Virus record (IMG/VR): IMGVR_UViG_3300044655_000707
Coordinates: 1-33,235 of that record
Length of the DNA: 33,235 nucleotides
Reading direction: 5' to 3' (one strand)
Source: a virus
Below, in pieces: positions 6,046 through 31,120 of this stretch (within the stretch, counting starts at the first letter, position 1; every line of letters begins with the position of its first letter). Position numbers and translations under genes: made by a program. The notes under the pieces are model-generated. The model did no database searches, was not told where the DNA came from, and saw only the letters and a program-made list of their open reading frames with translations.

Positions 6046-6051
6046 TTATAT

Positions 6052-6058
6052 TATTTAG
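6052..6058 (-). promoter_or_regulatory. Late promoter (CTAAATA) abutting a start codon
   Basis: CTAAATA on the minus strand ends 6 bases before the ATG at 6045. With T4 late spacing the transcript would start at about 6046, one base before the start codon. No Shine-Dalgarno site is present, so a leaderless mRNA is predicted. Confidence 0.55.
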
Positions 6059-6070
6059 GGTCCGATTTCA

Positions 6071-9520: not shown

Positions 9521-9529
9521 GTGGTAATA

Positions 9530-9537
9530 TATTTATA
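9530..9537 (-). promoter_or_regulatory. T4-type late promoter (TATAAATA)
   Basis: A perfect TATAAATA on the minus strand ends 9 bases before the ATG at 9520. T4 spacing predicts a start near 9524 and a leader of about 4 bases. The intervening TATTACCAC has no ribosome binding site. Confidence 0.6.
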
Positions 9538-9558
9538 TCAAGTGCATGTTATTTAAAT

Positions 9559-12500
9559 TTAGACTGAAGCAAAATTTTGTCCACCAATAAAGCCCAGCCA
9601 AGAAACTCCATTATCTACTGTTACAAATGAGAATACATCAACTTTTTGTACTCCAGCAGAACCTGAAGTTAGTGTAGGAGCAACTCCACCAGCCCATCTT
9701 ACTTTGGATCCCCATGTAATTGTAGAAGTTGGTGTATTCATCTGCAGTATTAAAGTAAATCCAATAGTACGGTTAGCTACTGTTGTCGGAACATTTGTTA
9801 CTACAAAATTTGTAATACTGGAAGTTAATGTCACCGTAAATACTTGAGCTTTGGATAAATCTAAAGTAAGTGTACCACTATCAATTGATACTGCTGCATA
9901 TGGTTCATTATACCACTGCAATGTTGGTTGATATATTGTATTTTTATTAAAATCTGCAGTTAAACCACCAAACGTAGCTGGACCTGTTGGTACAATTGTG
10001 AAGCCGGTGGTAAAATTCTGTGTTGCAGTAAAATTTTGAGCAACATCTAATTTAGCAACATTTGTAATTGCACCAGTAGCAGAATTGATACTCAATACAC
10101 CACTATTTGTAAATGTAAGAGTATTTCCTGTACTACTAATTGCTAATCCGGAAGAACCAGTAAATCCAACATTACCTGTTATACCTCTAACACTATTAAC
10201 AAGATTAATACCAGATATTCCACCTGATCCTACTGTTATATTTGTTGCGGTAAGATTGTTAGTAGTTATGTTTGCCGCACAGACACCAATTGTTCCAAAT
10301 TGATTTAATTCTCCTGTAAGACCTTTAGCAATATCATTAACTTTTCTATTGTTTATAGACACTAAATCTAATGCATAATTTTGATAACTACTTTGGGATT
10401 GTCTATCCATCAGTGGAACAAAATATGATGAACCATGACTATTGTTACTGAGAAATATTTTATTATAAGCTGTACCAGATACATAATCAGAAGTGCTACT
10501 TAAGAATACACCACCTGTAGATACAATACTTCCATATATTGGTGTTAAAGTTAATCCGCCTGTAAAGGGTGCTGATATTTTGGCAACATAATTATTTGTT
10601 ATTGTTGCATATAATGCAGTTTGAGATGGGGGAGCATAAGACGTAGCACCGTCAGTTTGTAGCCCTCGGGTACATAACATTGCTAATCTTTGAGATTCTC
10701 CTTTTCCAATAATAGAATTTCCATCTGCATTTACAAATAATGGTTCTATTGCTAGTGCAGGGAGTCCAGAAGCTTGGGTACCATCATTCTCAGCTACAGA
10801 TATAACACCTCCTCTATATACTCCAATAGATGCAGGAACATTATTAATAATAGTATTATTTCTAACTGTATAATACTTTGGTCTACCCATACTCATATCA
10901 GTATAAAATCCGATTGCAGTAGAACTATAATAAGGAAAACTGGTATCAGCAACTATTGGCAAACCATCGTGTGTAAATGGACTTTTTCCATCAGATGTAA
11001 CATCAAAGTGGAATGTATTATTGCTAACATTGCCAACAGCAATTTGAGGATTTATGTGCGGTGATCCTCTAGCAATCGATCTAACATTACAATAGATTTG
11101 ATTGCCAGTTATTGTGGATTCATCTCCTTGAATTTTTATTGAACGACCTTGGCAATTTGTGAATTTATTATTTGCTACAATACTGCTTGCAGGAATAGTA
11201 TTTGCACCATATGTTCTTCCACCAAATAATACCACTCCATCGGCATCAGAGTTTCTCTCAACATTTCCACCAGAAGTTCCTGTTAAAATATTTTCAAATA
11301 CATTATTTGTTACATTAACCCATTCAGCATATTGGGTTTCTGCGCCTCGGTTTGTTACAACAAAGGCTTGACAACCACCACCAGTTATTCCAGCCGAAGA
11401 TCTAAGTATATTTTTAAATAATGAATTTGTTAATGTAACACTTTCAAACCCACCCTCAATATAACATCCTAAACTCGCTGGTGTTTCAGTTGTAGCAAAA
11501 GTATTAAGAAACTGACAATTATTAATAAAAATTCTTGCAGCTGATTGAGCAGCAGAATAAGATTGAAAAATTCTAGAATTTGTATTATTTGCATCAAAAA
11601 TTATACCTTCTATATGAATATAGTTGGTATTTCCGTTTAATGTCAACATTCCAGCACCAGTAGCAGAACCCCATTGGATAGTGGCATTATCTCCTAAAAG
11701 TTTAATATCTTTATTAACAGGTTCATAACCAAGTGCTGCATTTATTTTATATCTTCCATATGGAAAATATATTGTTCCCGAAGAGATACCGCTCAATCCA
11801 AACATAGCACCCAATGCTGTTTGAATAGCGGCTCTATCATCTGTAATACCATCACCAACTGCACCAAAGTCCTTAACAGAAAATACATCTTTCAATTTAC
11901 TGTCAATTGTACGAGCTACTGCACCGCTACCAGATTGTGTGAAACAAAGACCAGAAAGCGTTACATTACCAGTAGCACCAGTATTCCCCTGAATACCGGT
12001 TGCACCAGTATTACCTGTAGTACCTTGAATACCAGTAGCACCAGTATTACCAGTATTTCCTGTAGAACCTGTATTACCAGTAGTTCCTTGTAGACCAGTA
12101 GGACCTTGAATTCCTTGATCGCCCTTTTGTCCAACAGCACCATTAAGATTTACATCCCATGAATTTGAATACGCGGTACCAGTAACAGAATTAACAACAA
12201 GAGATAATGTTACACCACTATAACTATTAACTGTTGCGATAAAATATTGAGATGCTCCAGCTGCAACTAAAACAGTTTGAACTTTACTATAGGCTAATCC
12301 AGATGGCACTGTTAATGTAACACCAGCACCAATAGATGCCAAGGTTATACCCGCTGTACCTGTTGATTTGTAAATATCACCAGCTAGCCCCGTACTACCA
12401 GTTGGACCAGCATTACCAGTAGCACCAGTGGAACCCGTTGAACCAGTATTGCCTCTAGGACCAGGAACGGTTGAATCTGCACCAGTTGCACCTGTATTAC

Positions 12501-13959
12501 CTGTTCTACCAGTTGCGCCCGTATTTCCTTGATTCCCAGTATTTCCTTGCGGACCTGTTGGGCCGGGAACAGTAGATGTTGCACCAGTTGCACCAGTATT
12601 TCCCTGATTTCCAGTATTTCCTTGAGGACCAGTAGGACCAGGAGCCGTGGAACCTGCACCAGTGGCACCAGTATTTCCTTGTGGACCAGTAGCACCAGTA
12701 TTTCCTTGTGGACCAGTAGGACCAGTTGAACCAACTCCCCCAATAGAAGAAATTTCAATATTATTACCAGATAAAGTTATACCAACATTTAAACCTGCTA
12801 CTAAATTAATACCACCACTAAGACCATTAAGTGATGAGACTCCACTAGTAATACCACCAGAAGATGCGATAGTTACACTATTTCCACTAATCCCCAATGT
12901 TACATTTTGACCAGCAAGAAAATCTATCGTTCCAGTAATGCCATTTATACTTTGTACAACAGTTCCCTGATAACTCCCACTAACACCAATATTACCATTA
13001 ATATATACTAAACCACCACTTGGTGTTAGAATCATATTTCCAGATGATGAAAGGTCTAAAGTAGCATTTGTAATAGCACCATCAGTAACATCGTTGTAAA
13101 TAAGCTTTAGAATTTTTCCATCACTTTTATTAACTTCTATAGCATGGGTTCTAGCTAAAACACTATTTCTATTAATCACAAGATTGGTATCAGGAGAAAG
13201 TGGATTTTGGTTTCGGATCTTAACCATATTAGAACTAGTTGATCCCAATACTTCTAAAACCGTTCCATAATTATTAGATTCTACATCACCCAATTGAACA
13301 AGACTACGATCTTGAAAGAATATTCCATCTTGTGCTCTAAAGTAAAAGAAACTAGTTGCAGACAACTCCGCTCCGCTTAGTTCTACTTCAAAACTTCCAC
13401 TACCTACTAATACTGAATTAAGAGATAATTGTGATGGGTTAGGAGTATATCTAAGAGGAGAGAGTCCTCCATCAATTTTTAATGCTTGGTTACCACACCC
13501 ACCAGCAAATACAAGATATTGTACATCTTCAGTATTGGTTGTAGTGAGAGCCATCTGTGTAGCAATACCATCATCTGCAGGAATAGTATCGTAAATAATT
13601 GTACCAACATTAGACGTATTACCATTAACAGCCGTACCGCTAACTTGAATAAATGTTATTTGATTACCAGAATATGCCGTAACTGTTCCATAAATATAAT
13701 TTCCAATATCTGTAAAACTTATTTTTATTGTGTGTCCAACAGATATTGCATTAGCATTCGAAGCTAAGTTAACATTTAATGTACTACTAGTACCATAATT
13801 TACAGTAATAGAACCTGTAAAATTTAATAAAAAGAAACCTTGACCTGTATTACCTTGTGGACCAGCTGGTCCAGTTGATCCTGGTACTCCAGGAACACCT
13901 TCAACAGCATAGGGAGTTGGATATACGGTTACTTGAACTGTTTTGCTTGGGCTTGCCAT
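9559..13959 (-). CDS. Collagen-like tail spike with pectate-lyase-type beta-helix, 1466 residues
   Basis: Domains in order: an N-terminal [16 protein letters not shown] docking-like segment and short collagen (12-40), a beta insert (41-115), and a mixed beta region (130-330). NGITG/NGLSG units follow (338-405), then Asn/Thr-rich collagen (410-527). Next are an 80-residue beta insert with VPSGLAY...SNSWDVNL (550-606), a second collagen run (607-664) and a right-handed beta-helix from about 692. The helix opens with the diagnostic [20 protein letters not shown] of the pectate lyase superfamily (Pfam Pectate_lyase_3 type). NN.F and SN.. turns recur to about 1170. The C-terminal 1350-1466 domain resembles fiber tip or trimerisation domains. 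Catalytic residues cannot be assigned, so it may cleave or only bind host polysaccharide. The start is one base after the preceding gene's stop, so it is cotranscribed. Confidence 0.88.
11968..12141 (-). repeat. Collagen-like coding repeat before the beta-helix
   Basis: About 19 Gly-X-Y triplets ([10 protein letters not shown] units) connect a small beta domain to the pectate-lyase-type domain of the 1466-residue spike. They probably form a thin trimeric stalk. Confidence 0.8.
12379..12732 (-). repeat. Collagen-like coding repeat (Asn/Thr type)
   Basis: About 39 Gly-X-Y triplets encode residues 410-527 of the 1466-residue spike. Three copies of a longer unit built on [19 protein letters not shown] are separated by STVPG or STAPG breaks. 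This shows expansion by tandem duplication. Confidence 0.8.
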
Positions 13960-15663: not shown

Positions 15664-16089
15664 TTATGAATTAAAAAATTTACGTAGTGATCCGGTATTA
15701 AATTTAGGAATCAAATCCCAATTATCTTTTTCTGTGTGCTTAATAATTTTAATACCATTGATTGGCATACAATCTTTAAGTTTATCTTTATCAACTACTT
15801 CAAGAAGTTCCCATTCTTCGAGTAATTTAACGATAGCATTACGTCTTTGCAAATCTTCATCTGATACATTAGATGGAAGATCATCTAGTGCAAATAGTTC
15901 TTTGAAGTGTGCAATGATATAAACGTCATCTTTATGAATTAGATGACATGATTGGTATAAGACATTCTTTCCTTTTGGAGATACACCAATACGAGAAAGA
16001 GTTTCACGAACAACCATGAAATCTTCTTCATCCAAAAGAGTAATATGAACGCCAATATTTTTAAATGTTTTATCAGATAGATCAGACAT
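15664..16089 (-). CDS. regA: RegA translational repressor
   Basis: The product matches T4 RegA along most of its length: EEDFMVVRETLSRIGVSPK (21-39), VLYQSCHLIHKD (43-54), IAHFKELFALDD (59-70) and RRNAIVKLLEEWELL (82-96). RegA binds the start regions of early phage mRNAs and blocks their translation. At 141 residues it is somewhat longer than T4 RegA (122) because of an N-terminal extension of about 15 residues. AAGGA lies 6 bases before the ATG, 17 bases after gp62. In T4 the order 45-44-62-regA is the same and the operon is regulated by RegA itself. Confidence 0.93.
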   Translation of the reverse strand: MSDLSDKTFKNIGVHITLLDEEDFMVVRETLSRIGVSPKGKNVLYQSCHLIHKDDVYIIAHFKELFALDDLPSNVSDEDLQRRNAIVKLLEEWELLEVVDKDKLKDCMPINGIKIIKHTEKDNWDLIPKFNTGSLRKFFNS

Positions 16090-16106
16090 AACAAATCCTT
16101 ACTAAA

Positions 16107-16487
16107 TTACCTCACACCACCAGTATCAAGGGCTTTGCGTATTTCTTGCAAATCCTCGGTACTCAGTATATTTAGTACTTCTCTAGCCTTGGATTCTGTG
16201 TAACCATATGCCTGCTTTATTAGCGTTACATTCTCTTCGGTATCTTTACGTAACCAAGGAGAAAACCGCTTCTTTTTACGAACAGCAAGCCGATAGAAAT
16301 CAAATTGACTCTTGTTGTCTAACCAAGGAGAACAATTCATCTCGTTGGCATGAAATAAGGTATCTGCAAAATAAGATAAACACCGATTGACTACAAACGG
16401 TGTATATGCCTTGACCGCGCCCTCATCTGTATCGAGAAGAGGTTTCTTGTCATGGTTTATACTAGATAAAAAGTCTTTTAGTTGCAT
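16107..16487 (-). CDS. 62: Clamp loader small subunit gp62
   Basis: This is the partner of gp44 in the phage clamp loader that opens the gp45 ring. It is recognised by position between gp44 and RegA and by the segment YTPFVVNRCLSYFADTLFHA (28-47), followed by a charged RKKKRFSPWLRK (70-81). At 126 residues it is shorter than T4 gp62 (187), as in T4-like phages of marine bacteria. The start overlaps the gp44 stop by one base (TGATG), so the two subunits are translationally coupled. This suits the fixed gp44:gp62 stoichiometry. Confidence 0.88.
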   Translation of the reverse strand: MQLKDFLSSINHDKKPLLDTDEGAVKAYTPFVVNRCLSYFADTLFHANEMNCSPWLDNKSQFDFYRLAVRKKKRFSPWLRKDTEENVTLIKQAYGYTESKAREVLNILSTEDLQEIRKALDTGGVR

Positions 16488-17431
16488 CAGTTAAACTCAC
16501 AGTCCATCATAAGTTGAACAATCAATGCCATGGTGTTAATTTCTTGGTCTGCTGCAAATGCAGACTTATATTGGTATTCAGCAATAATCAGAATAGCCTG
16601 TGGTACCGAAGGATTCTTAAGAGATGTATATAGTTCAGTATATAAACGTTTATAAAAATCAGATGTATTAAGATCTAGATTCTGTACCACCCACTTACGA
16701 CACGATACAAAATCCTTATTCTTCATAAATCCTAAAAGTTCCTTGTAGGACTCACTACTACCTTGACCAAGAACTCCAATATCAATACTACCTGCAGAGG
16801 CGTATCTCTGTAGTTCATTGATAATACGGCGAAGATCAGGAAAATGCTTCTTAACAAGGTTTACAATTACTGTTTTCTCATACGGAATCTTCTCTTGTGC
16901 AAGAATATACTCCACACGCTTCATCATTGCAGATGCAACAGCAGCCTTCTCGGCATTAGGAACTGTAAAATCAATACCGGTGCAACGAGAGTGCAATGGC
17001 TCAATGATACGATTCTTGTAATTGCAAGTCATGATGAATCTGCAGTTCTTTGCAAATTCTTCAATGGCTCCACGAAGAGCAGGCTGAATTGACTGTGCGT
17101 TGGCATAATCAAACTCATCCAAAATTACAACCTTTAGATTTCCACTTAGGGAAACCGTTGAGGCATAATTACGAATCTTCGTGCGTAATGTATCAATACC
17201 ATTCTCTTCAGAACAGTTAATAATAATACTTTCGGCACCGATGTCATTGGCAAGAGCACGGGCTACGGTTGTCTTTCCCGTACCCGCCTTGCCATATAGC
17301 ATCATATTAGGAATTGTACCTTCCTTGATCATACCATTAAAAATCGTGGTAAGATCAATAGGAAGAATACAATCAGATAATGACTTGGGTCGATATTTTT
17401 CAACCCAGAGCAGACTATTAATGTCAGACAC
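16487..17431 (-). CDS. 44: Clamp loader AAA+ ATPase gp44
   Basis: Walker A is GKAGTGKT (47-54), Walker B is VVILDEFD (101-108), and the SRC arginine finger is at 148-150. WVEKYRPKSLSDCILP (9-24) is the usual clamp-loader N terminus. At 314 residues it is close to T4 gp44 (319). The protein forms the ATPase core that loads the gp45 clamp on primer-template DNA, and the loaded clamp also activates late transcription. The start codon is GTG at 17431, two bases after the gp45 stop. Only a weak purine-rich GCGGGG lies upstream, so translation may depend on coupling to gp45. Confidence 0.95.
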   Translation of the reverse strand: MSDINSLLWVEKYRPKSLSDCILPIDLTTIFNGMIKEGTIPNMMLYGKAGTGKTTVARALANDIGAESIIINCSEENGIDTLRTKIRNYASTVSLSGNLKVVILDEFDYANAQSIQPALRGAIEEFAKNCRFIMTCNYKNRIIEPLHSRCTGIDFTVPNAEKAAVASAMMKRVEYILAQEKIPYEKTVIVNLVKKHFPDLRRIINELQRYASAGSIDIGVLGQGSSESYKELLGFMKNKDFVSCRKWVVQNLDLNTSDFYKRLYTELYTSLKNPSVPQAILIIAEYQYKSAFAADQEINTMALIVQLMMDCEFN

Positions 17432-17433
17432 AA

Positions 17434-18105
17434 TTAACCCCGCTTGATAGCGATGTAGTAAGCAAGTTCCAGACTCTTATGAGTAAACTTAGAGATAATA
17501 GTATCACTCAATTCCACAGTGTAGGAACCAGGAATAAACTTAATCTCAGATACATTCAAAGTACCTTCAAAATCCTTACCAGTATAGTTTTCATCTAAAA
17601 CGATCTCAAAACTATTGGTAGTACTCTGACTAGAATCATCAACCATAATACGGAAAGAACCTTCTCCACCAATCATACGAAGATCACTTACTTGTAGAAT
17701 GCTTGCTGCCTTCAAAATTTCATTTAGATCCTTTTCATCAAGATCAAACTTAATTGTAGTCTTTGGCATCTTGAGTTCTCTAGTAGGAACCGTTAAGAGG
17801 CTTGGTTCTGAGTAATAGTATGTAACACTCGATCTGCCGTTAGAAACGACTACATGGGTATCGTGGAACTCTAAATCGGGGTTTGAGAACATACTTACAA
17901 CACCCAAAAACTTGTTCAAATCCCAAACAGGAACTTCAACATCAAAGTCCTCTGAGATTGTAGCCTCAACGTAAATATTCTTACCAGGAGAGATAGTCTT
18001 GAGGACGTTTCCTGGTGAAATAAGAATATTTGAATTGATTGCTGCAAAATTCTTGAGAATGTTATAGGTGTCTTTTGATAAACGCATTTTTGTCACAGTT
18101 TCCAT
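17434..18105 (-). CDS. 45: Sliding clamp gp45
   Basis: The 223-residue product matches T4 gp45 (228) in size and layout. It has MRLSKDTYNILKNFAAINSN (7-26), then a WDLNKFLGVVSMF segment (62-74) corresponding to DLNGFLGILSL of T4, and a C-terminal second clamp domain. gp45 is the trimeric processivity ring for the phage polymerase and the mobile activator of gp55-dependent late transcription. The ATG at 18105 has AGAAAGA upstream. The later ATG at residue 7 aligns with the T4 start but has no ribosome binding site. It heads the 45-44-62-regA run, downstream of the 50-residue ORF and its sigma70-type promoter. Confidence 0.93.
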   Translation of the reverse strand: METVTKMRLSKDTYNILKNFAAINSNILISPGNVLKTISPGKNIYVEATISEDFDVEVPVWDLNKFLGVVSMFSNPDLEFHDTHVVVSNGRSSVTYYYSEPSLLTVPTRELKMPKTTIKFDLDEKDLNEILKAASILQVSDLRMIGGEGSFRIMVDDSSQSTTNSFEIVLDENYTGKDFEGTLNVSEIKFIPGSYTVELSDTIISKFTHKSLELAYYIAIKRG

Positions 18106-18124
18106 ATATAAATCTTTCTAAAAA

Positions 18125-18277
18125 TTAATCACGTTCTTTACGATAAACGATATCGTTAAGTTGCTGCTTCTGTTCGTGGCGATCTCCACGCTTACTTCTC
18201 TTCTGTTGCTTTTTACCCAAACCTGATGGCTTATTCTTGCCTCGGTTACTAAACTTCTGAAAACTTTCCTCGTTCAT
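18125..18277 (-). CDS. Small basic protein, 50 residues, unknown function
   Basis: The ATG at 18277 opens a 50-codon frame ending in TAA at 18125, 19 bases before gp45. The product is highly charged, with many Lys, Arg and Gln residues. KPSGLGKKQQKRSKRGDRHE (17-36) is followed by a short IVYRKERD tail, and there is no hydrophobic core. It is therefore likely a nucleic-acid- or polymerase-binding peptide that is disordered alone. A sigma70-like promoter places the expected transcription start exactly on this ATG, the same arrangement as uvsY and gp55, which supports it as a real gene. In T4 the gap between 45 and 46 encodes RNA polymerase-binding RpbA, but this product is much shorter and I see no clear match. 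Confidence 0.65.
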   Translation of the reverse strand: MNEESFQKFSNRGKNKPSGLGKKQQKRSKRGDRHEQKQQLNDIVYRKERD

Positions 18278-18283
18278 AGCCCT

Positions 18284-18311
18284 AGTATATCTCCTGTATT
18301 GAAATAGTCAA
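18284..18311 (-). promoter_or_regulatory. Sigma70-like early promoter of the clamp operon
   Basis: On the minus strand the -35 box is TTGACT (18311-18306), followed by a 16-base spacer and the -10 box TATACT (18289-18284). The ATG of the 50-residue ORF begins 7 bases after the -10 box, which is the canonical +1 position. The -35 box overlaps the stop codon of the 113-residue gene. It probably drives the ORF, 45, 44, 62 and regA. Confidence 0.7.
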
Positions 18312-18649
18312 ATCTGAACCCATTGAAATCCCGAAATATCTTTATACCAAATATATAATGCACCAGTATCAGCCATCCACAATTGATTTTCTAATGGTTT
18401 TATAGGTGGTACAGAACCTTTAAATGTTTCAGACATTCCTGTAAAAGCCCAATTTGATTTATCTTGTAAAGGACTTAGAGTTGTTGCTTTTAAACACTTA
18501 TAAAATCTACCTTGGCTTGTAACGTTATCACCACGATTATAAGTTATAACAGATCCATTAACACTTTTAGCTGTATACTGTGGAGTTGTGACCGGATTTT
18601 TTGCAATCGTGTCAGTACTGAGAGATATTTCTGGCTTTTTAACACTCAT
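18308..18649 (-). CDS. Late structural/carbohydrate-binding-like protein, 113 residues
   Basis: Residues 38-71 read YNRGDNVTSQGRFYKC, then eleven residues on DKSNWAF. This fits the G..V...G..Y.C......P.....W pattern of small chitin/cellulose-binding modules (CBM5/12 type) found in tail proteins. The C terminus (about 78-113) has NQLWMADTGALYIWYKD and ends QWVQI, the same short module as in the 149- and 617-residue fiber proteins. It is thus a virion-type gene inside the replication block, between 46 and the clamp operon. Its own CTAAATA element ends 5 bases before the ATG at 18649, and no Shine-Dalgarno site is present. Inference: a fiber or capsid decoration protein made late. Confidence 0.7.
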   Translation of the reverse strand: MSVKKPEISLSTDTIAKNPVTTPQYTAKSVNGSVITYNRGDNVTSQGRFYKCLKATTLSPLQDKSNWAFTGMSETFKGSVPPIKPLENQLWMADTGALYIWYKDISGFQWVQI

Positions 18650-18654
18650 AAAAA

Positions 18655-18661
18655 TATTTAG
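18655..18661 (-). promoter_or_regulatory. Late promoter (CTAAATA) abutting a start codon
   Basis: CTAAATA on the minus strand includes the TAA stop of gp46 and ends 5 bases (TTTTT) before the ATG at 18649. T4 spacing predicts initiation on the A of that ATG. Confidence 0.55.
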
Positions 18662-20379
18662 ATATTTGTCTTTATCTTTGAAAAGTTATTTTTCTTTTCA
18701 AATTGCATACTTTGATCAAATTTATCTACCAACTGGTCTGCCTTGTGGCTGATGATATAGATAGAGCATTTGTTGGTCATCTTATTTAAAATTTTCATAA
18801 AGGCTTCAGTACCAGCAGCATCAAGAGATGAGTCTAAAATCTCATCAAAGATTAATAGGTTACAGTTAAGGCTATTTTTCATTCGTGCAACTTCACGCCA
18901 AGTCAATAGAATTGCCAAGTCAATGCGTTGTTTTTCTCCCTCAGAGAAAGAGGAATATGAGAATGCATCTCGGTATCGTGACTTAATTGTTTCCTTGAAC
19001 TCTTCATCGATGGTGAAGTCAACATAAAGATTAAGTTTTCCGAGGAACTTGTTAACGAGTCCATTGATGATGGGAACATAATGTGTAATAATGCGGCTTT
19101 TGAGACCGCCATCTTTGAGTATATCGTAGACAATATCATGGTGTATTTGTTTGGTAATTAATGCGTCCAATTGCCTAGTAGCATTTTCCTTTTCCAATTC
19201 TGCATCTTTGATTTTTTGCAATAATGTATTCTCATTTTCGTTCACCAACTTCTTATTCTTTTCTTTTTTCATAAAACTAAGAGAAGATTGATTGCTGATA
19301 ATTTGATATGAGATATCGTTATTATCAGACTGATGTTTTTGTTTGAGTGTCTTTAGTTCTTCTACTTCAGTTTGAAGTTCTAAAAGTTCTGCATTCTTCT
19401 TTGTGGCAATAACAATTGCCTTGCGACAATCTTCCAACTTAGATTCTTTATCTTGAATATGTTTTTCTTTTTGAAACTTAGGTAGATCCTGACCACAGCA
19501 CTTACATAAGGCATTTTCTTTAAGAGAAACAATCTCTTCAACCAAAGTTGCCTCTAATACTTCTGCCTTGGTTAACATAGCAGGAACATCTTTTAGAGCA
19601 CTTAGGTTTGTTAACTTCTTGGTAAGTTTAGCAGATACATCTTTTAGATTTTTTTCATGCTTTGCTTGAAGCACATTATCATCTGCAATCTTAGTTGTAT
19701 AATCTTGAATAGATGCTTCAATAGACTTGATCTCTTCTACTGCGGTAGTTTGAATTGTTTCTAATACTTCTTTCTGAGACTTAATCTTTTCATGTACAAT
19801 CTTTAACATGCTTTCTTGTTCACCAAGAGACAGTTTTAATCCTGATAGTTGACCCTTAACATATAGATTCATGTCAGCAAGAATATCAAGATTCAAAAGA
19901 CCTTCAATAATCTTACGTCTTTCAGCAGGAGTCAACTGCATGAAAGGAACAAAGTTAGACTTACCAAGAATAACTACCTGCTTGAAGGCTGCATAATCAA
20001 ATCCAAGAATGTTTTCTTCAAACATTTCTTGATAATCTTTAGTCTTAGCGTTTTGGTCAAGCATTTCTCCATCTTTATAAATCTCAAAGATTTTAGGTGC
20101 GAGACCACGGCGAACTAGAAAATGGCAGTTTGACTTCTTAAATTCAATTTCTACAACACACTGCTTGGCATTAACTGTATTGATTAGTTGTGGAATATTA
20201 ATAGGTCTGAATGGCTTTCCAAACAAACCAAAGCAGAGAGAGTCTAATAGAGCAAAAGACTTACCGTTTCCATTGGTGCCAGTAACTAATGTGGTCTTAT
20301 AATTATCGAGTTTGATCTCAGAAAAATTATTACCAAATGAACCAAAGTTTTTAAAACGAACTGTTAGAAAATCTATCAA
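18658..20379 (-). CDS. 46: Recombination nuclease ATPase subunit gp46 (Rad50/SbcC-like)
   Basis: This SMC-like ATPase works with gp47 to resect DNA ends for recombination-dependent replication. Walker A is GTNGNGKS (34-41). A long coiled coil is split by a zinc hook CKCC (292-295) near GQDLP. The ABC signature is FSEGEKQR (478-485), and Walker B is NLLIFDE (507-513), followed by a D-loop SSLD. At 573 residues it is close to T4 gp46 (560). The start codon is TTG at 20379, in a TTGA overlap with the gp47 stop and with AAGGA 6 bases upstream, so it is coupled to gp47. Its stop codon forms part of a late promoter for the next gene. Confidence 0.95.
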   Translation of the reverse strand: MIDFLTVRFKNFGSFGNNFSEIKLDNYKTTLVTGTNGNGKSFALLDSLCFGLFGKPFRPINIPQLINTVNAKQCVVEIEFKKSNCHFLVRRGLAPKIFEIYKDGEMLDQNAKTKDYQEMFEENILGFDYAAFKQVVILGKSNFVPFMQLTPAERRKIIEGLLNLDILADMNLYVKGQLSGLKLSLGEQESMLKIVHEKIKSQKEVLETIQTTAVEEIKSIEASIQDYTTKIADDNVLQAKHEKNLKDVSAKLTKKLTNLSALKDVPAMLTKAEVLEATLVEEIVSLKENALCKCCGQDLPKFQKEKHIQDKESKLEDCRKAIVIATKKNAELLELQTEVEELKTLKQKHQSDNNDISYQIISNQSSLSFMKKEKNKKLVNENENTLLQKIKDAELEKENATRQLDALITKQIHHDIVYDILKDGGLKSRIITHYVPIINGLVNKFLGKLNLYVDFTIDEEFKETIKSRYRDAFSYSSFSEGEKQRIDLAILLTWREVARMKNSLNCNLLIFDEILDSSLDAAGTEAFMKILNKMTNKCSIYIISHKADQLVDKFDQSMQFEKKNNFSKIKTNI

Positions 20380-21422
20380 TCTTCATCCTTTGACATTGCG
20401 GCATTATATGCTGAGTTTATAATATCAGCAAGCACATTTTTATTAATTGATTTTTCTGTAACTGTATCAATCTCTTCATGAAGTAACTGTAATGTATCTT
20501 TATGAATGTCAACAGCCACTAGATCCGGGTTTGCTGTTACATCTTCGGTAACGGCTAACTCTGCTACTCCTGCTTCGTAGAACTTATCCAAGTATTTCTC
20601 AAAGGCTGGACCTTTAGTTCGGTTCTTGATAAAGATCTTAACATATGTATCTTTAAACTTTGAGTAGTCTAATTTTTCTGGGTTGGTTTCATCGTAGTCA
20701 AACGTATAGAAAAGCCTTTTTGGATTCTCGATAAATTCAAGCGTTCTTGCTGCAAAATCAAAGACATGAAACCCTTTGGCTTCCCAAACGTCTGAGAAAG
20801 CCATTTGGTACTGAGATCCCAGGTAATGTATATTATCCCGGCTAGATTTAATATGATAATGCCCAGTAAGAACATATTCAAATTTGTCAAAATGTTTTGG
20901 GTCATAGCCATGCTCAATAAAGATACCACGAATACTCTGAAAGCCACACAATTCTAAATGTCCTAGTAGTAGAGAGCATCTAGTGTTGGTAATAAACTCT
21001 GCCGATTGAATCTCATTCTCTGGGTTGATCCAAGGCAATAATGCTACACAACCAGCAGAGGTTTGAATCTCTGTTGGTTCTGAATGAATCTCCCAGTTAG
21101 AATACTGTTGTGCAATTTCTTGTAAAGAATTGACCGTATTATTATTCTTGTAGTAGGTATCATGATTGCCACAGATAGCAATACACTTTACGCCAAGTTC
21201 TTGAAGGGGTTCAAAGAACCTTGTGCGAACCTGTTGAAGAGTCTTAAAATTAATATATTTTCTACGATCAAAGACGTCACCTAGGTGAAAGATGGTCTTG
21301 ATATTGTTTTCTTTAATATATGGAAATAACTGTCCTTCAAAGAAGGACATAAAGTATTCTAGGACTATTGGGGAATCTGCTTTGTACCCAAAATGGGTAT
21401 CATTAAGAATTATTGATTTCAT
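20376..21422 (-). CDS. 47: Recombination nuclease subunit gp47 (Mre11/SbcD-like)
   Basis: This is a calcineurin-like metallophosphoesterase. The metal ligands are visible in NDTHFG (7-12), HLGDVFDRR (46-54), CGNHDTYY (84-91) and later GHLELCG and LTGHYH. At 348 residues it compares with T4 gp47 (339). It is the nuclease of the gp46/47 complex that processes double-strand ends. The ATG at 21422 overlaps the gp55 stop by ATGA, and its own stop overlaps the gp46 start by TTGA, so 55-47-46 is one coupled unit. Confidence 0.95.
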   Translation of the reverse strand: MKSIILNDTHFGYKADSPIVLEYFMSFFEGQLFPYIKENNIKTIFHLGDVFDRRKYINFKTLQQVRTRFFEPLQELGVKCIAICGNHDTYYKNNNTVNSLQEIAQQYSNWEIHSEPTEIQTSAGCVALLPWINPENEIQSAEFITNTRCSLLLGHLELCGFQSIRGIFIEHGYDPKHFDKFEYVLTGHYHIKSSRDNIHYLGSQYQMAFSDVWEAKGFHVFDFAARTLEFIENPKRLFYTFDYDETNPEKLDYSKFKDTYVKIFIKNRTKGPAFEKYLDKFYEAGVAELAVTEDVTANPDLVAVDIHKDTLQLLHEEIDTVTEKSINKNVLADIINSAYNAAMSKDED

Positions 21423-21991
21423 ATATCAAGTGTATCTTTCTTTGACTTACGCTTGCGCTTAACGCCCTCTTTCTTAGGTGGATTTAGCATAACACCAAAT
21501 CTATCCATGTCAAGGTCTGTAAGTCCAAAGAAATCTCTTCGACCAATGTCTACACCAGCGTATACTTTATTAAACCAATGATGAAAGTCTTTATCATTCT
21601 GCTGTTCTGCATACTTATATTGTGTATACTTTTCTTTCTTTTCTTTGTTTATAATACGAACAAAAGAAAACCAGCAAATCTGAGTAAGATATCCGAATGG
21701 ACTTTTAGACTTTTCTGGATCAAAGTTACCAATATATGTAATACAGTTTAAAACCGCATCAGATACCATTTCTTCTCTATATGGATAGTTTGCAAAATTG
21801 GGACGGAAAGAAAGTCTTGATGCAATCTTAAGAACACATTCTCCTATAAAATCTGGAAGCTTTGGTTTCTTTCGACCTGCATTTTCTGCATCATTAGACT
21901 TTTTACGATAATCAACTAAAGCATCATATAAATCAGAGTTACTTACGTAATCTGCATCTGATGGTTTCTTTTTTTTGGATGGGTTTTTCAC
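21419..21991 (-). CDS. 55: Late transcription sigma factor gp55
   Basis: This divergent sigma70-family factor replaces host sigma and recognises the TATAAATA-type late element. It is recognised by position next to 47/46 and by conserved T4 gp55 segments: YVSNSDLYDALVDYRKK (15-31), FRPNFANYPYREEMVSDAVL (62-81), then NFDPEKSKSPFGYLTQICW (89-107) and IINKEKKEKYTQYKY (113-127), equivalent to region 2. A basic C-terminal tail (about 174-187) precedes TLDI. The start is GTG at 21991, with no Shine-Dalgarno site. The -10 box TATAAT ends 6 bases upstream, so the mRNA should begin at the GTG itself. At 190 residues it is similar to T4 gp55 (185). Confidence 0.92.
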   Translation of the reverse strand: MKNPSKKKKPSDADYVSNSDLYDALVDYRKKSNDAENAGRKKPKLPDFIGECVLKIASRLSFRPNFANYPYREEMVSDAVLNCITYIGNFDPEKSKSPFGYLTQICWFSFVRIINKEKKEKYTQYKYAEQQNDKDFHHWFNKVYAGVDIGRRDFFGLTDLDMDRFGVMLNPPKKEGVKRKRKSKKDTLDI

Positions 21992-22030: not shown

Positions 22031-22927
22031 TTAAATATACTTATTCAAGGATATAGTTGCCTTCCAACCAAGAATTTTTTCAATTTTTGTTGTATCTGCT
22101 ATTGTATCTCGTGCTTCACCGGGTCTAGGCGCAATATTAATTATATTAGTTGGATCTGGTTCTATTTTTGATGCAATCCAATTTATTGAATAATTCTTAC
22201 CAGTTCCAACATTAAATATTTCTCCAAAAAGGTTTTCTTTATGTGTTGTTGCTAATATATTTGCTTTTACTACATCTGAGACATGTATATAATCTCTAGT
22301 TTGTTCACCATCACCAACCACAGTAAGTTTCTGTTTAGATTCTTTTTGTCTAGTAAAAATACCTATAACTGGTGCATATGGGCCTTTCTTTGGTTGGTTT
22401 GGTCCATAGACATTAAAATATCTTAAACACACAGTATCAACCCCATACATTAAACTATACATTTTACATGCTTGTTCAGCATTAAATTTGCTTAAAGAAT
22501 AAGAATTTAAACAATCTGGTAGCATTTCTTCATGTAATATTCCAGTATTTTTTAATCCATATATTGCAGAAGTTGTAGAAAGAACTAATCTCTTTACATT
22601 ATATTTCTTACATAAAGAAAGCATATTAAGAGTTCCAATTAAATTTGTCTCGTATGCTTTAATAGGATCTGCAATACAATTTTGAATCCTTGCCTCAGCT
22701 GCTGAGTGTAATACAAAATCTGGTTTAGCCCTATTAAATGCATCGGAACACATCTCATAATCAATTACACTATAGTGATAATATTTTGCTTTAAAATTAA
22801 AATAAAATTCATCATGGGCATCTGATGATAAATTGTCTATAACCACCACTTCGTGTCCATCATCAATTAGTGTATTAACTAAATTAGATCCAATAAACCC
22901 AGCCCCACCTGTAATTAAATATTTCAT
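22031..22927 (-). CDS. NAD-dependent nucleotide-sugar epimerase/dehydratase (extended SDR)
   Basis: The Rossmann motif GGAGFIGS (7-14) is followed by VIDNLSS. The catalytic Ser/Thr region is LSTTSAIYG, and the YSLSK (YxxxK) dyad comes shortly after. RYFNVYGPNQ and VVGDGEQTRDYIHVSDVVKA are typical of UDP-glucose 4-epimerase-like enzymes. At 298 residues it is slightly shorter than the usual 310-340. It would interconvert an NDP-sugar used by the surrounding transferases; the substrate cannot be read from sequence. The ATG overlaps the GT6 stop by ATGA. It is the last gene of the glycan operon, and gp55's promoter begins just 6 bases after its stop. Confidence 0.88.
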   Translation of the reverse strand: MKYLITGGAGFIGSNLVNTLIDDGHEVVVIDNLSSDAHDEFYFNFKAKYYHYSVIDYEMCSDAFNRAKPDFVLHSAAEARIQNCIADPIKAYETNLIGTLNMLSLCKKYNVKRLVLSTTSAIYGLKNTGILHEEMLPDCLNSYSLSKFNAEQACKMYSLMYGVDTVCLRYFNVYGPNQPKKGPYAPVIGIFTRQKESKQKLTVVGDGEQTRDYIHVSDVVKANILATTHKENLFGEIFNVGTGKNYSINWIASKIEPDPTNIINIAPRPGEARDTIADTTKIEKILGWKATISLNKYI

Positions 22928-23631
22928 TGCGATTTTCTTACTTGTAAATGATTTTTATCAATGTGTAATATTTTTGTAGGTCCAAATGAAGACCAACTTT
23001 CGGGCTGTGCATATGTTGGGGGCAGTACTACCGTTGGTGTATTTAAAATCATATATTTGTTCATATAGCTTTCATCATGCCACAATGCTATATAATTTTT
23101 TCTAAGATCTTCTTCAGATTGATCTCTTAAATATTTACACATATTAATAAATTCTTTGCTTTCTCCACCCTGAAAACAATTTTGATAATAATGATTCCCT
23201 TTGCCAATATCTACTCCTGAGTTTGCAGCCACATTTCTATCATATGGAAATTTTGAATTATTATCAAATGATGACATTCCTGGATGACTGACACAAACAC
23301 GATGTCCTAAAATTTCTTCACCAACCATATCTTTCATTATCATATCACAATCAATATGATATACATAATCATAATTTTGTAAAACTTCACAATTACTATA
23401 ATAATGATATCTTAGTAAAGAAATTAAAGGAAAGGGTACATGTGTTATATGTACTCCAATTGGATTTACACGACCAAAGTGATTTTTAAATAATTCAGGT
23501 TTATCTGTAAATACAAACAGGTTAACTTGATCTTGAGTATTTGAAAATGCATGTTTATTCATGCTCTCCAAAAGATTTTCTGCATATTTAATATACTTAT
23601 TAGTGGCTATTGTTACAAAAGCTATTTTCAT
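22924..23631 (-). CDS. Family GT6 glycosyltransferase (ABO/alpha-galactosyltransferase-like)
   Basis: GT6 hallmarks are clear. The N-terminal strand is MKIAFVTIATNKY. YVYHIDCDM holds a D-x-D motif (D94, D96), QNCFQGGESKEF lies at 150-161, and the acceptor/catalytic region IALWHDESYMNKY (181-193) closely parallels the vertebrate ABO transferase segment. The family transfers Gal or GalNAc in alpha-1,3 linkage with retention. Most bacterial members have NxN in place of DxD, whereas this one keeps DxD, as I recall for the cyanophage P-SSM2 member. It consists of the catalytic domain only, with no membrane anchor, so it acts in the cytosol. The ATG lies 32 bases inside the upstream GT4 gene, an unusually long overlap, but no later start preserves the first strand. 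Confidence 0.88.
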   Translation of the reverse strand: MKIAFVTIATNKYIKYAENLLESMNKHAFSNTQDQVNLFVFTDKPELFKNHFGRVNPIGVHITHVPFPLISLLRYHYYSNCEVLQNYDYVYHIDCDMIMKDMVGEEILGHRVCVSHPGMSSFDNNSKFPYDRNVAANSGVDIGKGNHYYQNCFQGGESKEFINMCKYLRDQSEEDLRKNYIALWHDESYMNKYMILNTPTVVLPPTYAQPESWSSFGPTKILHIDKNHLQVRKSQ

Positions 23632-24568
23632 TTATAAATTCTTTCACAATTTTTATATAATCATCACAGACAACATCCCAATCAAAATAATCTAAAGCAT
23701 ATTTTCGAATATCATCTCTATATTTATTGTTATCTTCAATTGCAGTTCCTATTGTTTCATTTATTGAATCATTAATAGGACCATCTATTACATGTATAAA
23801 TGGAAGCGTAGTATCAAGATTTGCTGCTGCAGTTGGAGAAACAACTAAACTTAATCCGGCAGATAAAGCCTCTGGCACCACTAGAGGTGCAGCCTCACCA
23901 TCACTCAATAAAATTAAACATTTATAATTAGTCATATTTTGATACAAATCTGGTTTAGCCCAAACACCAGCATATTTGCATGTTTCATTTTCTTTAAAAG
24001 CATAGTCAATTACTGGACCAACAAAATCTATATGATTTTTGTTTCTACATGCATTTGCTAAATCTGCCTGTCTTTTACGTGGCTCCACTTTTCCTAAACA
24101 AAGACCATGTTTACTAGGAGTTTTTATAAAATTAAATTCAGAACTTCTTGCCCCATTACGCAAAGATCTTAAAAAACCTTTATATCCAGAACCTTTAAAT
24201 AAATTGGAAATTTCTGGTGCTAAAGATATAATACCTTTGCTATTTAATACACCATTATATATATTTTTCCATCCTGGATAATCTGGATAATGTTCTTTTA
24301 TATATCCATAGTGAGTTGTGGTGCAAAATGGTTTATTAATTAATTTAGTTAAAACTTGTGCATGATCATCATAATGAAGATGAATAAAATCATAATCAAC
24401 TTCATTTACATAATTTGCAACACTTTGTAAATCTGGACTATTGATTATTTCTACATCATGTCCCTTTTTTAAAAGGTATTCATATTGATCCCATATTAAA
24501 CTTTCAACTGCACCCCAATTATTTGGGGGTATTGGCATTATACCTGGTCCTATTAAACATATTTTCAC
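23600..24568 (-). CDS. Family GT4-type glycosyltransferase
   Basis: The product has a GT-B fold with two Rossmann halves. The N-terminal MKICLIGPGIMPIPPNNWGA (1-20) contains the usual donor/acceptor loop, and HLHYDDHA lies at 63-70. The C-terminal half has GKVEPRKRQADL (159-170) and the E-x7-E element in SDGEAAPLVVPEALSAGL (222-239, E225 and E233). At 322 residues it is compact for GT4. The start is GTG at 24568, with a strong AGGAG 6 bases upstream. Its 3' end overlaps the GT6 start by 32 bases. It probably adds a hexose from an NDP-sugar to a growing glycan; specificity is unknown. Confidence 0.85.
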   Translation of the reverse strand: MKICLIGPGIMPIPPNNWGAVESLIWDQYEYLLKKGHDVEIINSPDLQSVANYVNEVDYDFIHLHYDDHAQVLTKLINKPFCTTTHYGYIKEHYPDYPGWKNIYNGVLNSKGIISLAPEISNLFKGSGYKGFLRSLRNGARSSEFNFIKTPSKHGLCLGKVEPRKRQADLANACRNKNHIDFVGPVIDYAFKENETCKYAGVWAKPDLYQNMTNYKCLILLSDGEAAPLVVPEALSAGLSLVVSPTAAANLDTTLPFIHVIDGPINDSINETIGTAIEDNNKYRDDIRKYALDYFDWDVVCDDYIKIVKEFINENSFCNNSH

Positions 24569-24597
24569 TTTATTCTCCTATTATCTGTAATATACTA

Positions 24598-25377
24598 TTA
24601 TGCCATATCTTTTAAAAATGGCAACGGTTTTCCATTTAGATTAAAATGAATATTAAACAAATTTGGATTATTTTTCCATAAAATACCAAGAATAATTTGT
24701 TCATTATTGATACACAAGTTATTTAAATAATATTCAAATTTGTTTTTTACTAAATGTGATAATTTTGTCATTATTGGTTTGCCCCCACCAAATAAACCTC
24801 CACACAACATTGTATTACAATTCCATATATATTGATCATCACCTGGCCAATTTTTATTAAACAATAAAGTATTAATATTTCCTTGAATATTTATTTTTTC
24901 TACCTGTAATAAAGAATAATTATTGGGCCAATTTTGTAAATCAATTCCATCAAAAAACCTACTAATTCCTGCATCCATCCAAAAATAATAATCAGTATCA
25001 AAATACTTATTATCTATACACTCTTGAATCCAATCAAATTTAGAATATTGTATAATATTATATAACGGCAACACGCATTCAACTCGGTCATTTGCCATCA
25101 TTTTATGTTTATATTCTTTTGAATATATTATATTTTCTATATTAGTTTTATACTTGTAATAAGGTATTTCGTTTAAAGGTTTAATTATAAGTTTAGTTTT
25201 ATTATTTATTCTATTTTCATTTATAAAAGATTCAAATTTTTTTTCAGTATAAATTACTAAATTTATATTTAATTTTAAAGTTTCTTTAAACCAGTCAAGA
25301 TATTCAGAAATGCTTCTTCCATCTCCTTTAGTTTCTCTTTCTATATCATATAATGCAGTTATTGCGGTAATAGACAT
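24598..25377 (-). CDS. HtrL/YibB-like protein (putative glycan-modifying)
   Basis: The N terminus MSITAITALYDIERETKGDG, continuing SISEYLDWFKETLKL and LVIYTEK, matches the HtrL_YibB family pattern. In that family an R near the start is followed by a Y..WF segment and a nucleotide-binding-like strand. YYFWMDAGISRFF holds an acidic D-x-G motif in the position of a GT-A metal site. HtrL/YibB genes sit in LPS core loci, but their reaction is not established. I chose the ATG at 25377, one base after the upstream stop, because the family motif starts there. The in-frame ATG at 25401 would overlap the previous gene. Confidence 0.7.
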   Translation of the reverse strand: MSITAITALYDIERETKGDGRSISEYLDWFKETLKLNINLVIYTEKKFESFINENRINNKTKLIIKPLNEIPYYKYKTNIENIIYSKEYKHKMMANDRVECVLPLYNIIQYSKFDWIQECIDNKYFDTDYYFWMDAGISRFFDGIDLQNWPNNYSLLQVEKINIQGNINTLLFNKNWPGDDQYIWNCNTMLCGGLFGGGKPIMTKLSHLVKNKFEYYLNNLCINNEQIILGILWKNNPNLFNIHFNLNGKPLPFLKDMA

Positions 25378-25378
25378 A

Positions 25379-26383
25379 TTATATTTCTTTATTGAATACA
25401 CGCATCAATGAATTAACTCTATTTAAATATGTGTGACTGTCTTTGACAAAATTCATTTGATTTTTTATATAATCATAGTCTTTTAATTTTGATAAAGATA
25501 TATCTAATAATTCTTCTTCATTATCTGAATATAAAACATTATCACCAAATAATTCATATACTGCTTTAGAATTGGTTATACCAAGTTGTCCATAACTTAT
25601 ATTTTTAAATATTCTGCAAGGAATATATCCTATTTTTTTATGGTTTGATCCAGTATCTATTTGTCCATTTACCATAGAACGATTAGCTGACCCTCTTATA
25701 TCTGGAGCAATAAATGACTTTTGAGTATATGTTTTTGCATCTTCCCAACTTAAAGGGTTTGACCAAGGATCATTGTGATGAAACCCTATTCCATGTTTAC
25801 TAAGATTGTTAATAAATTTATTTATTTCTCTATAATTACTTTCAGCTATTGAGCCAATCCAATGTATTACATTGTCTCGGTTTATATAAACATCATCATA
25901 ATTAAATTCGTGAGGTAATAAATCAGTAGCCCAACTTAAATAAAGTGCTTCATAATCTTTTATTCCTTTTTTATATTTGTCAGATAATACTGAATCATTT
26001 GCATTTTTTTCATAAAAAGAAACTTCATCTAATTTTAATAATTTTGATTTATCTACTATAATTGAATAATTACAATCATTTATTTCAGAAACATTAAATC
26101 TAATATCAATTAATCTTGCACCCTTTAAAATATATTTTTCTGGATTTACGCATATATGAACAAAATAAGTTGATGTTTCATTAATTGGAATATTTTTTTC
26201 AGCATACCCTTCTGTAATAAAAAGACAATTTGAATAATCAAAATCTATAGGATATGATTCATCGTTAAACCAATGAACATCATATCCTAAATGTTTGAAT
26301 GTTTTGTACCATGCACCATGTATATACGAGTGGGTATGGCTGTGTAGTGGATATCCCCAAATAATAACTTTTTGTTTAAACAT
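25379..26383 (-). CDS. GT-B-like glycosyltransferase (putative)
   Basis: The N-terminal part has VIIWGYPLHSHTHSYIHGAW (about 6-25), which resembles the first strand and loop of GT-B enzymes. The C-terminal half, with IGYIPCRIFKNISYGQLGIT followed by NSKAVYELFGDNVLYSD, resembles the donor-binding half of CgeB/family-1-like transferases. There a conserved R or K, a GQ.G turn and a late acidic residue bind the nucleotide sugar. The ATG at 26383 has AGGA 6 bases upstream and overlaps the upstream stop (ATGTTTAA). The more distal ATG would overlap by 38 bases. The family is not certain. Confidence 0.6.
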   Translation of the reverse strand: MFKQKVIIWGYPLHSHTHSYIHGAWYKTFKHLGYDVHWFNDESYPIDFDYSNCLFITEGYAEKNIPINETSTYFVHICVNPEKYILKGARLIDIRFNVSEINDCNYSIIVDKSKLLKLDEVSFYEKNANDSVLSDKYKKGIKDYEALYLSWATDLLPHEFNYDDVYINRDNVIHWIGSIAESNYREINKFINNLSKHGIGFHHNDPWSNPLSWEDAKTYTQKSFIAPDIRGSANRSMVNGQIDTGSNHKKIGYIPCRIFKNISYGQLGITNSKAVYELFGDNVLYSDNEEELLDISLSKLKDYDYIKNQMNFVKDSHTYLNRVNSLMRVFNKEI

Positions 26384-27086
26384 ATTGTTCCTTATATTGA
26401 TGCACAAGAGCATGATCCGAATTCATCCAATTTGGATTTCTCCGGTATTCTGTAAGTTGTTGATTAACAGTAACTTTTTTTCCACATACAAAATAAATAA
26501 GAACTAATAGTTGATCCATTGATCCATATCCAAAATTGTATTTTTTTCCAGATAAATTTTTAACAATATAATCATGATCTTCATTTATAAATTTTTTAAT
26601 TAAATCAAATTTATTAAGTAATATTTCCGTATTTAAAACAGTTCCACCACAAGCATTATACCAATTTATATTTGGAAATACATTGTATTTTTTACTTAAA
26701 TAATCTAAAACTTCATTTGGAATTATATTTCCTGGAGAATCAACACCAGCCAAATCTATATTTGTATCTAAATTAAATTTTTTTCTACATAATACATCAT
26801 CTTCCATCAATAAAAGATATTCAGATGATGAATTTATAGCACATGTTTTTAATCTGTTTATTATTTGATGTGCTTGATCTACTGTATAATAATCCATACC
26901 AATATTGTTTTTTTCAAAAATATAATTACAAGAATATTTTTTTGCTATTTCACTAAAATCTTCTCCTCCATCAGATACTAGATAATAGTCTATATTAGGA
27001 TTATGTTGTTTAAAATTTTTAATAGCAAATTCTGTTGCTTTTTTATTATTAAAACATTGATGATAAACTGTTAATTTTTTACTCAT
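26376..27086 (-). CDS. GT2-like (GT-A fold) glycosyltransferase
   Basis: A single GT-A-like domain. TVYHQCFNNKKATEFAIKNF (6-25) opens the nucleotide-binding half, YYLVSDGGEDFSEIA (34-48) follows, and LLLMEDDVLCRKKF (91-104) carries an ED-D-type metal-binding motif. NACGGTVLN and GYGSMDQLL in the second half could form the acceptor side. It starts immediately after the upstream stop (TAA then ATG), so it is coupled. It probably adds one sugar in a short glycan; donor and acceptor are unknown. Confidence 0.7.
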   Translation of the reverse strand: MSKKLTVYHQCFNNKKATEFAIKNFKQHNPNIDYYLVSDGGEDFSEIAKKYSCNYIFEKNNIGMDYYTVDQAHQIINRLKTCAINSSSEYLLLMEDDVLCRKKFNLDTNIDLAGVDSPGNIIPNEVLDYLSKKYNVFPNINWYNACGGTVLNTEILLNKFDLIKKFINEDHDYIVKNLSGKKYNFGYGSMDQLLVLIYFVCGKKVTVNQQLTEYRRNPNWMNSDHALVHQYKEQYV

Positions 27087-27857: not shown

Positions 27858-27859
27858 TT

Positions 27860-29729: not shown

Positions 29730-29731
29730 GA

Positions 29732-31069: not shown

Positions 31070-31120
31070 AAATTAACCCATTTTTTTATTATTAACAACC
31101 ATATCATTTAGTTTGTTTGT

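Follow-up and report, generated by a model that had tools for sequence, protein, structure and literature searches.

A conserved small basic gene ahead of the sliding clamp gene in uncultivated T4-like viruses and the promoter geometry at its start codon

What is encoded directly upstream of the sliding clamp gene (gp45) of an uncultivated T4-like virus, how would it be expressed, and what could its product do? These questions were raised by a short frame in a stretch of viral DNA of 33,235 nucleotides (IMG/VR record IMGVR_UViG_3300044655_000707), referred to below as the window. A sequence-only reading had described the frame, with no strand given, as an overlooked gene for a basic protein of 50 residues directly preceding gp45. 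The frame is present on the minus strand at 18125-18277, starts with ATG and comprises 50 codons plus a stop codon; it is named p50 here. Its translation is MNEESFQKFSNRGKNKPSGLGKKQQKRSKRGDRHEQKQQLNDIVYRKERD, with 15 K/R (9 K, 6 R), 7 D/E (3 D, 4 E) and 6 Q and a pI of 10.3.

The reading frame, its neighbours and its relatives

The window is part of a T4-like virus. Its genes stand in the order gp55, gp47, gp46, an ORF of 113 aa, p50, gp45, gp44, gp62 and regA, with uvsY farther away, and PHROG matches were obtained for all of them except the 113-aa ORF and p50. On the minus strand these are gp55 (late sigma factor, GTG start; 21419-21991; phrog_234, E 7.2e-49), gp47 (20376-21422; phrog_100, E 1.3e-94), gp46 (18658-20379; phrog_77, E 5.5e-145), gp45 (17434-18105; phrog_223, E 1.1e-65; PF09116), the clamp loader gene gp44 (16487-17431; phrog_168, E 3e-118), a gp62-type clamp loader subunit (16107-16487; phrog_225, E 1.2e-38) and a regA-type translation repressor (15664-16089; phrog_242, E 7.7e-45). 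On the plus strand, uvsY (32627-33064; phrog_231, E 2.3e-34) has an ATG start. Among the matches listed, the closest cultured gp45 was that of a cyanophage (42% identity), and the closest cultured gp44 that of Pelagibacter phage Mosig (54%). The 113-aa ORF (18308-18649, minus strand) had no PHROG match at 0.001 and a weak CBM_5_12 match below the Pfam cut-off (E 3.9e-4); this is an odd location for a carbohydrate-binding module protein.

Relatives of p50 were collected from IMG/VR viral contigs. A search with the single sequence gave 48 loci. A profile search matched 84 uncultivated viral contigs, 80 of which were listed, and a second profile again matched 84 with 80 listed, L201 and L202 being new relative to the first list. 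The set of 80 loci used below is that of the first profile; it is without L048 from the one-sequence search, L201 and L202 from the second profile, and the four unlisted contigs. With the window added there are 81 copies of p50; they fall into 65 different coding sequences that encode 47 different proteins. Each of the 81 begins with ATG and has 50-55 codons, and the net charge of all 47 proteins lies between +7 and +9. When 12 large contigs were scanned with the p50 profile, each gave exactly one match.

The sequence-only reading had named conservation of the frame and its substitution bias as a check, and both were found. In the real frame pN/pS was 0.165 (63 distinct sequences, 46-codon stretches), and the five other frames of the same DNA gave 1.54, 2.74, 1.08, 2.89 and 0.27; the last value, from an antisense frame, is the expected mirror of third-position variation. 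Variability by codon position was 0.17/0.09/0.47. Since pS was 0.81 and thus near saturation, the true dN/dS is probably below 0.165 and the constraint is not one at the RNA level. Stops interrupt both alternative frames of the same strand, and one of the antisense frames, in all distinct sequences; the other antisense frames have them in 38% and 62% of cases. Invariant residues numbered 24 in an alignment of 25 members; in another, with 23 members of greater diversity, there were 18. The C-terminus was variable and mostly charged as judged by eye from the aligned members. Selection on p50, as read from these substitution patterns, is at the protein level.

The link to gp45 was also constant. 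In all 80 listed relatives (of 84) gp45 is the next gene; the gap measures 19 nt in the window and usually does not exceed about 25 nt, and in the 55-aa variants (e.g. L109, L118 and L122) the p50 frame overlaps the start of gp45. Starting from the gp45 side, 63 loci were found, 62 of them with upstream DNA, and an intact p50 of 50-55 residues was present in 61 of the 62. This test is hardly independent, as 60 of the 63 contigs are shared with the 80-contig set; the other three are L146 (found in the one-sequence search), L184 and L188, which begins inside gp45. The single exception, L184, has an intact gp45 and a p50 whose frame is lost beyond residue 26 or so (42-residue frame), and in L189, which bears the same sample number, gp45 is broken (open frame 85). 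Both breaks are likely assembly or sequencing errors. At 59 of the 80 loci the 113-aa ORF separates p50 from gp46. Two loci, L098 and L123, have no gp46 match within 3.5 kb upstream, and p50 still adjoins gp45 there. Five further loci (L066, L080, L087, L089 and L115) differ on the other side of gp45: gp44 starts about 630 nt past the end of gp45 instead of directly after it, and an extra gene seems to have been inserted there.

From these data p50 is judged to be a genuine small gene that is conserved and had been overlooked. Small phage genes are easily missed, and this one has been retained beside the clamp gene throughout a virus clade. That the frame arose by chance and has no product could be argued from its lack of a family in Pfam, PHROGs and NCBIfam and from the frameshifted copy in L184. 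Its relatives, the linkage to gp45, the conserved promoter described below, the pN/pS value and the single match in each of 12 contigs speak against this, and we regard a chance frame as practically negligible. A different alternative accepts translation and gives the peptide little importance: p50 would mainly be a leader cistron acting in cis, whose leaderless start loads ribosomes, with gp45 translated by coupling. The position directly before gp45 at all 80 loci, the short gap and the overlapping 55-aa variants fit such a role. However, a pure leader ORF needs no protein constraint of the kind seen in the invariant positions, the low pN/pS and the narrow charge range, and this explanation is considered quite unlikely.

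The promoter at the p50 start codon

The good sigma70-type promoter reported by the sequence-only reading was recovered on the minus strand as TTGACT-16-TATACT-6-ATG. The -35 box TTGACT (18306-18311) is separated by a 16-nt spacer from the -10 box TATACT (18284-18289), which lies 6 nt from the p50 ATG and is conserved across relatives. A GGAG at 18291-18294 (-17 to -14) was found in 46 of 56 distinct upstream sequences; it could extend the -10 box upstream or be a distant Shine-Dalgarno sequence. In 50 distinct 45-nt upstream sequences three blocks were conserved, namely TTGA[TC]T at -34 to -29, GGAG at -17 to -14 and TATAAT at -12 to -7, and the sequence between them was poorly conserved.

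At least five of the six positions of TATAAT were found exactly 6 nt before the p50 ATG in 46 of 56 distinct 60-nt upstream sequences, 31 of them with a perfect box, compared with about 1.3 expected from shuffling. As a control, 25 distinct, hand-picked upstream sequences of gp45 were inspected, and a -10 box at 6 nt occurred in none. A pyrimidine at -1 was present in all 56 p50 upstream sequences; it would agree with a start at the ATG but is no specific sign of one, because gp45 starts show it almost as often (24 T and 1 A of 25).

Part of the -35 conservation is confounded, because the TGA of the 113-aa ORF, on the same strand, falls within the -35 box of p50. At loci without this ORF the -35 box is still TTGACA or the weaker TTGTAT. 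The earlier description of p50 as the first gene after the promoter is correct for this promoter; the unit is not an isolated block, as the 113-aa ORF ends in its -35 box. Shorter patterns were not enriched. A promoter scan of 16000-21000 gave 24 sites against 18.6 +/- 4.1 in shuffled sequences, which is not significant. Across the whole window, TATAAT-N6-ATG with one mismatch occurred 38 times (36.0 expected), and GGAGWTATAAT with one mismatch 6 times against 2.7, a number that was reached in 7 of 100 shuffles and is not significant. The p50 promoter is thus credible from its conservation among relatives and not from the window scan, and the case for it relies on the full geometry with the -35 box together with this conservation.

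With a gap of 6 nt after the -10 box, transcription is expected to start at the A of the ATG. The p50 mRNA should therefore lack a leader, and it probably does begin at its start codon, as far as promoter geometry can indicate. A Shine-Dalgarno sequence at normal spacing is absent from the DNA upstream of p50: no conserved G-rich run was seen at -12 to -4 in 50 distinct upstream sequences, and the AGGG of the window copy at -6 to -3 is too near the ATG and is not conserved.

A second signal was found in part of the clade. The motif TATAAATA, the T4-type late promoter, lies 45-46 nt upstream of p50 in 16 of the 17 loci that have gp46 and lack the 113-aa ORF (among the loci with the motif are L057, L061 and L074-L081). 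Within 60 nt upstream it occurred in none of the other 64 p50 copies. In members bearing this motif, p50 and the clamp block may thus also be expressed late.

The same geometry at other genes of the clade

The ATG of p50 had been said to sit at the predicted +1 exactly as for uvsY and gp55. Within the window this arrangement was found at both genes, as TTGACA-16-TATA[AC]T-6-start. For gp55, TATAAT (22003-21998, minus strand) lies 6 nt upstream of the start codon and TTGACA at 22025-22020; for uvsY, TATACT (32615-32620, plus strand) is again 6 nt upstream and TTGACA is at 32593-32598. Among 8 distinct upstream sequences of gp55 from relatives, compared by eye, the geometry was kept in 5 (L057, L077, L079, L080 and L119), and the exceptions were L094 with a weak box, L086 with a poor box and L095 with a shifted start. 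A generally leaderless uvsY was rejected: the -10 box was at 6 nt in only 11 of 43 distinct upstream sequences, at 9 nt in 9, at 11-12 nt in 8, elsewhere in 8 and missing in 7. The 6-nt form of uvsY recurs in close kin of the window virus.

For a clade-wide count, 12 contigs (1.16 Mb in total; those behind L003, L047, L113, L046, L119, L030, L117, L026, L128, L125, L035 and L027) were chosen for length and presence of p50; they are related, so that matches in them are not independent. The pattern TTGAC-N17-TATANT-N6-RTG with one mismatch gave 78 matches in these contigs against 5 for the reversed pattern; the start codon was intact in 58 of the 78, and 22 were exact. With 16 nt to the RTG, the same search gave 29 matches against 5 reversed, several of them being the same promoters with a second ATG or GTG downstream. 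When the boxes were kept exact and the distance to ATG was left free between 0 and 26 nt, 72 matches were obtained against 4 reversed, some sites being counted at two distances. Their distribution peaked at 6 nt, with 20 at 6, 18 at 7-9, 11 at 13-14 and 8 at 0. With the distance fixed at 6 and the spacer between -35 and -10 box free, there were 31 matches against 1 reversed. Applied to 12 genomes of cultured T4-like phages (2.06 Mb), the search with exact boxes and free distance gave 5 matches against 3 reversed; one of the five was at 6 nt, in Mosig.

In 30 fetched loci, a closed reading frame of 44-189 codons starts at each of the 17 exact sites, several of these frames being homologues of one another. 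Among the exact sites is that of gp55 (L366); p50 (L358) has a site with one mismatch, as does a gp33-like gene (L373 and L374) that matches phrog_254, late promoter transcriptional regulator (E 7e-15). Many matches open short ORFs without an assigned product, some of them basic (44 and 57 codons in L371). The geometry can therefore serve as a rule for spotting further missed genes in the clade.

The rows with an intact start codon were also used to judge the GGAG of p50. All 58 were taken, 57 of them distinct and 51 without p50, and the 51 non-p50 promoters show a weaker purine run at -16 to -13. This suggests that the GGAG at p50 belongs to the promoter, as a strong version of one of its elements, and is not a Shine-Dalgarno sequence. 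An alternative would have p50 translated from an mRNA with a leader, the GGAG acting as a distant Shine-Dalgarno sequence and the -10 match serving some other purpose. The GGAG indeed occurs as often as the -10 box (each in 46 of 56 upstream sequences) and could act in this way on read-through transcripts. However, 13 nt separate it from the ATG, whereas the runs of other genes in the window, where visible, are at about 4-10 nt (by eye); a -10 match found at 6 nt in so many upstream sequences (46 of 56) cannot be incidental, and the purine run marks other promoters of the class as well. A leadered p50 mRNA is hence regarded as rather improbable.

From the sigma70-like boxes and the gene content we infer that the class is an early one. 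Overall, it appears somewhat probable that the clade has a distinct class of early promoters, TTGAC-N17-TATANT-N6-ATG/GTG, with the start codon fused to the promoter; that many early transcripts, among them those of p50, gp55, the gp33-like coactivator and many short genes, are leaderless; that the first wave of phage translation would depend on ribosomes recognising the 5' AUG; and that p50 represents a new family of basic early proteins tied to the clamp. If this is true, infection by these T4-like viruses would begin with leaderless mRNAs, as the promoter geometry suggests. The clade-wide promoter class outranks in interest any guess at the function of p50.

Known systems resemble this arrangement in part. 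In leaderless genes of Deinococcus-Thermus the ORF is preceded by a '-10 motif' at a distance of 6-7 bp (PMC12340547); the -10 box of p50 in 46 of 56 upstream sequences is likewise about 6 nt before the start codon. In contrast to those genes, the present promoters belong to a phage, have a clear TTGAC -35 box and occur in a T4-like clade. The cI mRNA of phage lambda is counted among leaderless mRNAs in the relevant part of a review (PMC9031893), which makes it a phage precedent, although it concerns a single gene of a temperate phage, whereas many genes of a T4-like clade are predicted to be leaderless here. For Melnitz, one of the cultured phages nearest to the clade, 31 early and 15 late promoters were predicted and no middle ones could be identified, according to the promoter passage of PMC9004378; in the available text of that paper the word 'leaderless' occurs only within a reference. 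In the search listings from open-licence PubMed Central, no account of T4-like phages with a class of leaderless promoters appeared. The host markers WhiB and bS21 (PF01165) were each found in none of the 12 contigs.

The RpbA position and the possible role of the product

No relative of known function was found for p50. There was no match in Pfam, PHROGs (none at E<=1) or NCBIfam, and the lack of a Pfam match extends to the bS21 family PF01165, to which p50 does not belong by this search. Searching PHROGs with 23 members at E up to 10 gave weak unrelated matches and no RpbA family. Among cultured phages, tblastn gave nothing but a single Erwinia phage, present in two records, at E 2, and a consensus query gave no match. 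The p50 profile had no match in 13 cultured T4-like genomes and none in T4, Mosig, Melnitz and HTVC008M, while all 12 positive-control contigs matched. A pattern search of the genome_contigs collection gave 65 matches, none of them a relative of p50. Against PDB sequences only a cullin was returned (E 0.3), which was taken as chance, and a Foldseek search of the p50 model against predicted viral structures gave no match.

The place of p50 had been compared with that of the RNA polymerase-binding protein RpbA of T4. This comparison is borne out as to position: T4 has rpbA and 45.2 upstream of gp45, and Lazarus and Aeromonas phage 31.2 likewise carry genes annotated as RpbA or 'RNA polymerase' there; T4 rpbA, like p50, lies directly ahead of gp45 within the replication block. 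Kinship was not borne out. T4 RpbA, with 129 aa, is 2.5 times as long as p50 and gave no BLASTP alignment with it, and the RpbA profile phrog_1285 matched none of the 12 large clade contigs while finding T4 and Lazarus, in a scan at E up to 1 that was loose enough to match 3 of 14 well-known control genomes as well. T4 gp45.2 (62 aa) resembles p50 in being a small ORF between gp46 and gp45, but it too showed no BLASTP alignment with p50, and its family phrog_1045 was not among the matches of p50 or of 23 members. On this evidence RpbA is a positional parallel of p50 only and not a relative.

The slot as such implies no function, because other genes occupy it in the sampled cultured relatives without an annotated RpbA. 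It is filled by a DUF3310 protein in Melnitz and, as judged by eye, by similar-looking proteins in four cyanophages (e.g. T4-GC_152 in S-MbCM7), all of about 94-153 aa and unlike p50; Mosig has a 31-residue ORF there, and in IME-SM1 the slot is taken by gp46 itself. This varied occupation and the lack of similarity between proteins of 50 and 129 residues weigh against p50 being a functional replacement of RpbA that binds host core RNA polymerase. In favour of such a replacement are the shared slot in T4, Lazarus and Aeromonas phage 31.2, the binding of RpbA to core polymerase as stated in part of PMC8076793, the absence of RpbA profile matches from the 12 contigs, and the position of the clade's gp55 and gp33-like coactivator behind promoters of the same class. 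The replacement is considered unlikely.

A ligand of the clamp, or an aid in clamp loading specific to this gp45 lineage, was considered as well. Such a role would agree with the linkage of p50 to gp45, which is stricter than that to gp46 (L098, L123), and with the intact p50 at 61 of 62 gp45 loci. The known epitope by which gp55, gp33 and gp43 bind the clamp is at the C-terminus and in gp55 short, hydrophobic and acidic, as given in the epitope passage of PMC2988020, whereas the p50 tails are variable and mostly charged (by eye) and do not resemble it. A clamp ligand is thus considered quite unlikely.

An AlphaFold2 model of p50 computed from 25 sequences shows a short helix at residues 3-10 and a long, basic one at 19-49 with a linker between them (mean pLDDT 77.7, pTM 0.35). 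From the charge and the helicity predicted in this low-pTM model, binding to a polymerase or to nucleic acid is plausible. The constant charge, the helix prediction and the type of promoter together favour an early protein that binds nucleic acid or a nucleic-acid machine. In the explanation preferred here, p50 would be the first cistron of the clamp/clamp-loader/regA block in a clade of uncultivated T4-like viruses. Host sigma70-type RNA polymerase would start at the A of its ATG, the early mRNA would be leaderless and read by ribosomes binding the 5' AUG, and p50 would be made early together with the clamp. With less support, the product may act in trans as infection begins, by attaching to nucleic acid or to a machine that works on it, candidate partners being host RNA polymerase, the phage replisome and the ribosome; it would be the positional counterpart of T4 RpbA and not its relative. 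For this explanation as a whole, from real first-cistron gene through leaderless early mRNA to nucleic-acid- or machine-binding early protein, we consider the chances to be evenly balanced.

Two further regions of the window were noticed. Beside the replication genes, 22031-32541 (minus strand) carries a long series of ORFs that, on reading their sequences, appear related to sugar metabolism or glycosyltransferases; its segment 22031-22927 (minus strand) gave a nucleotide-sugar epimerase family match (phrog_540, E 2.8e-78). At 4192-13959 (minus strand), ORFs of 617, 1149 and 1466 aa contain collagen-like G-x-y stretches and, by their appearance, probably encode tail or fibre proteins.
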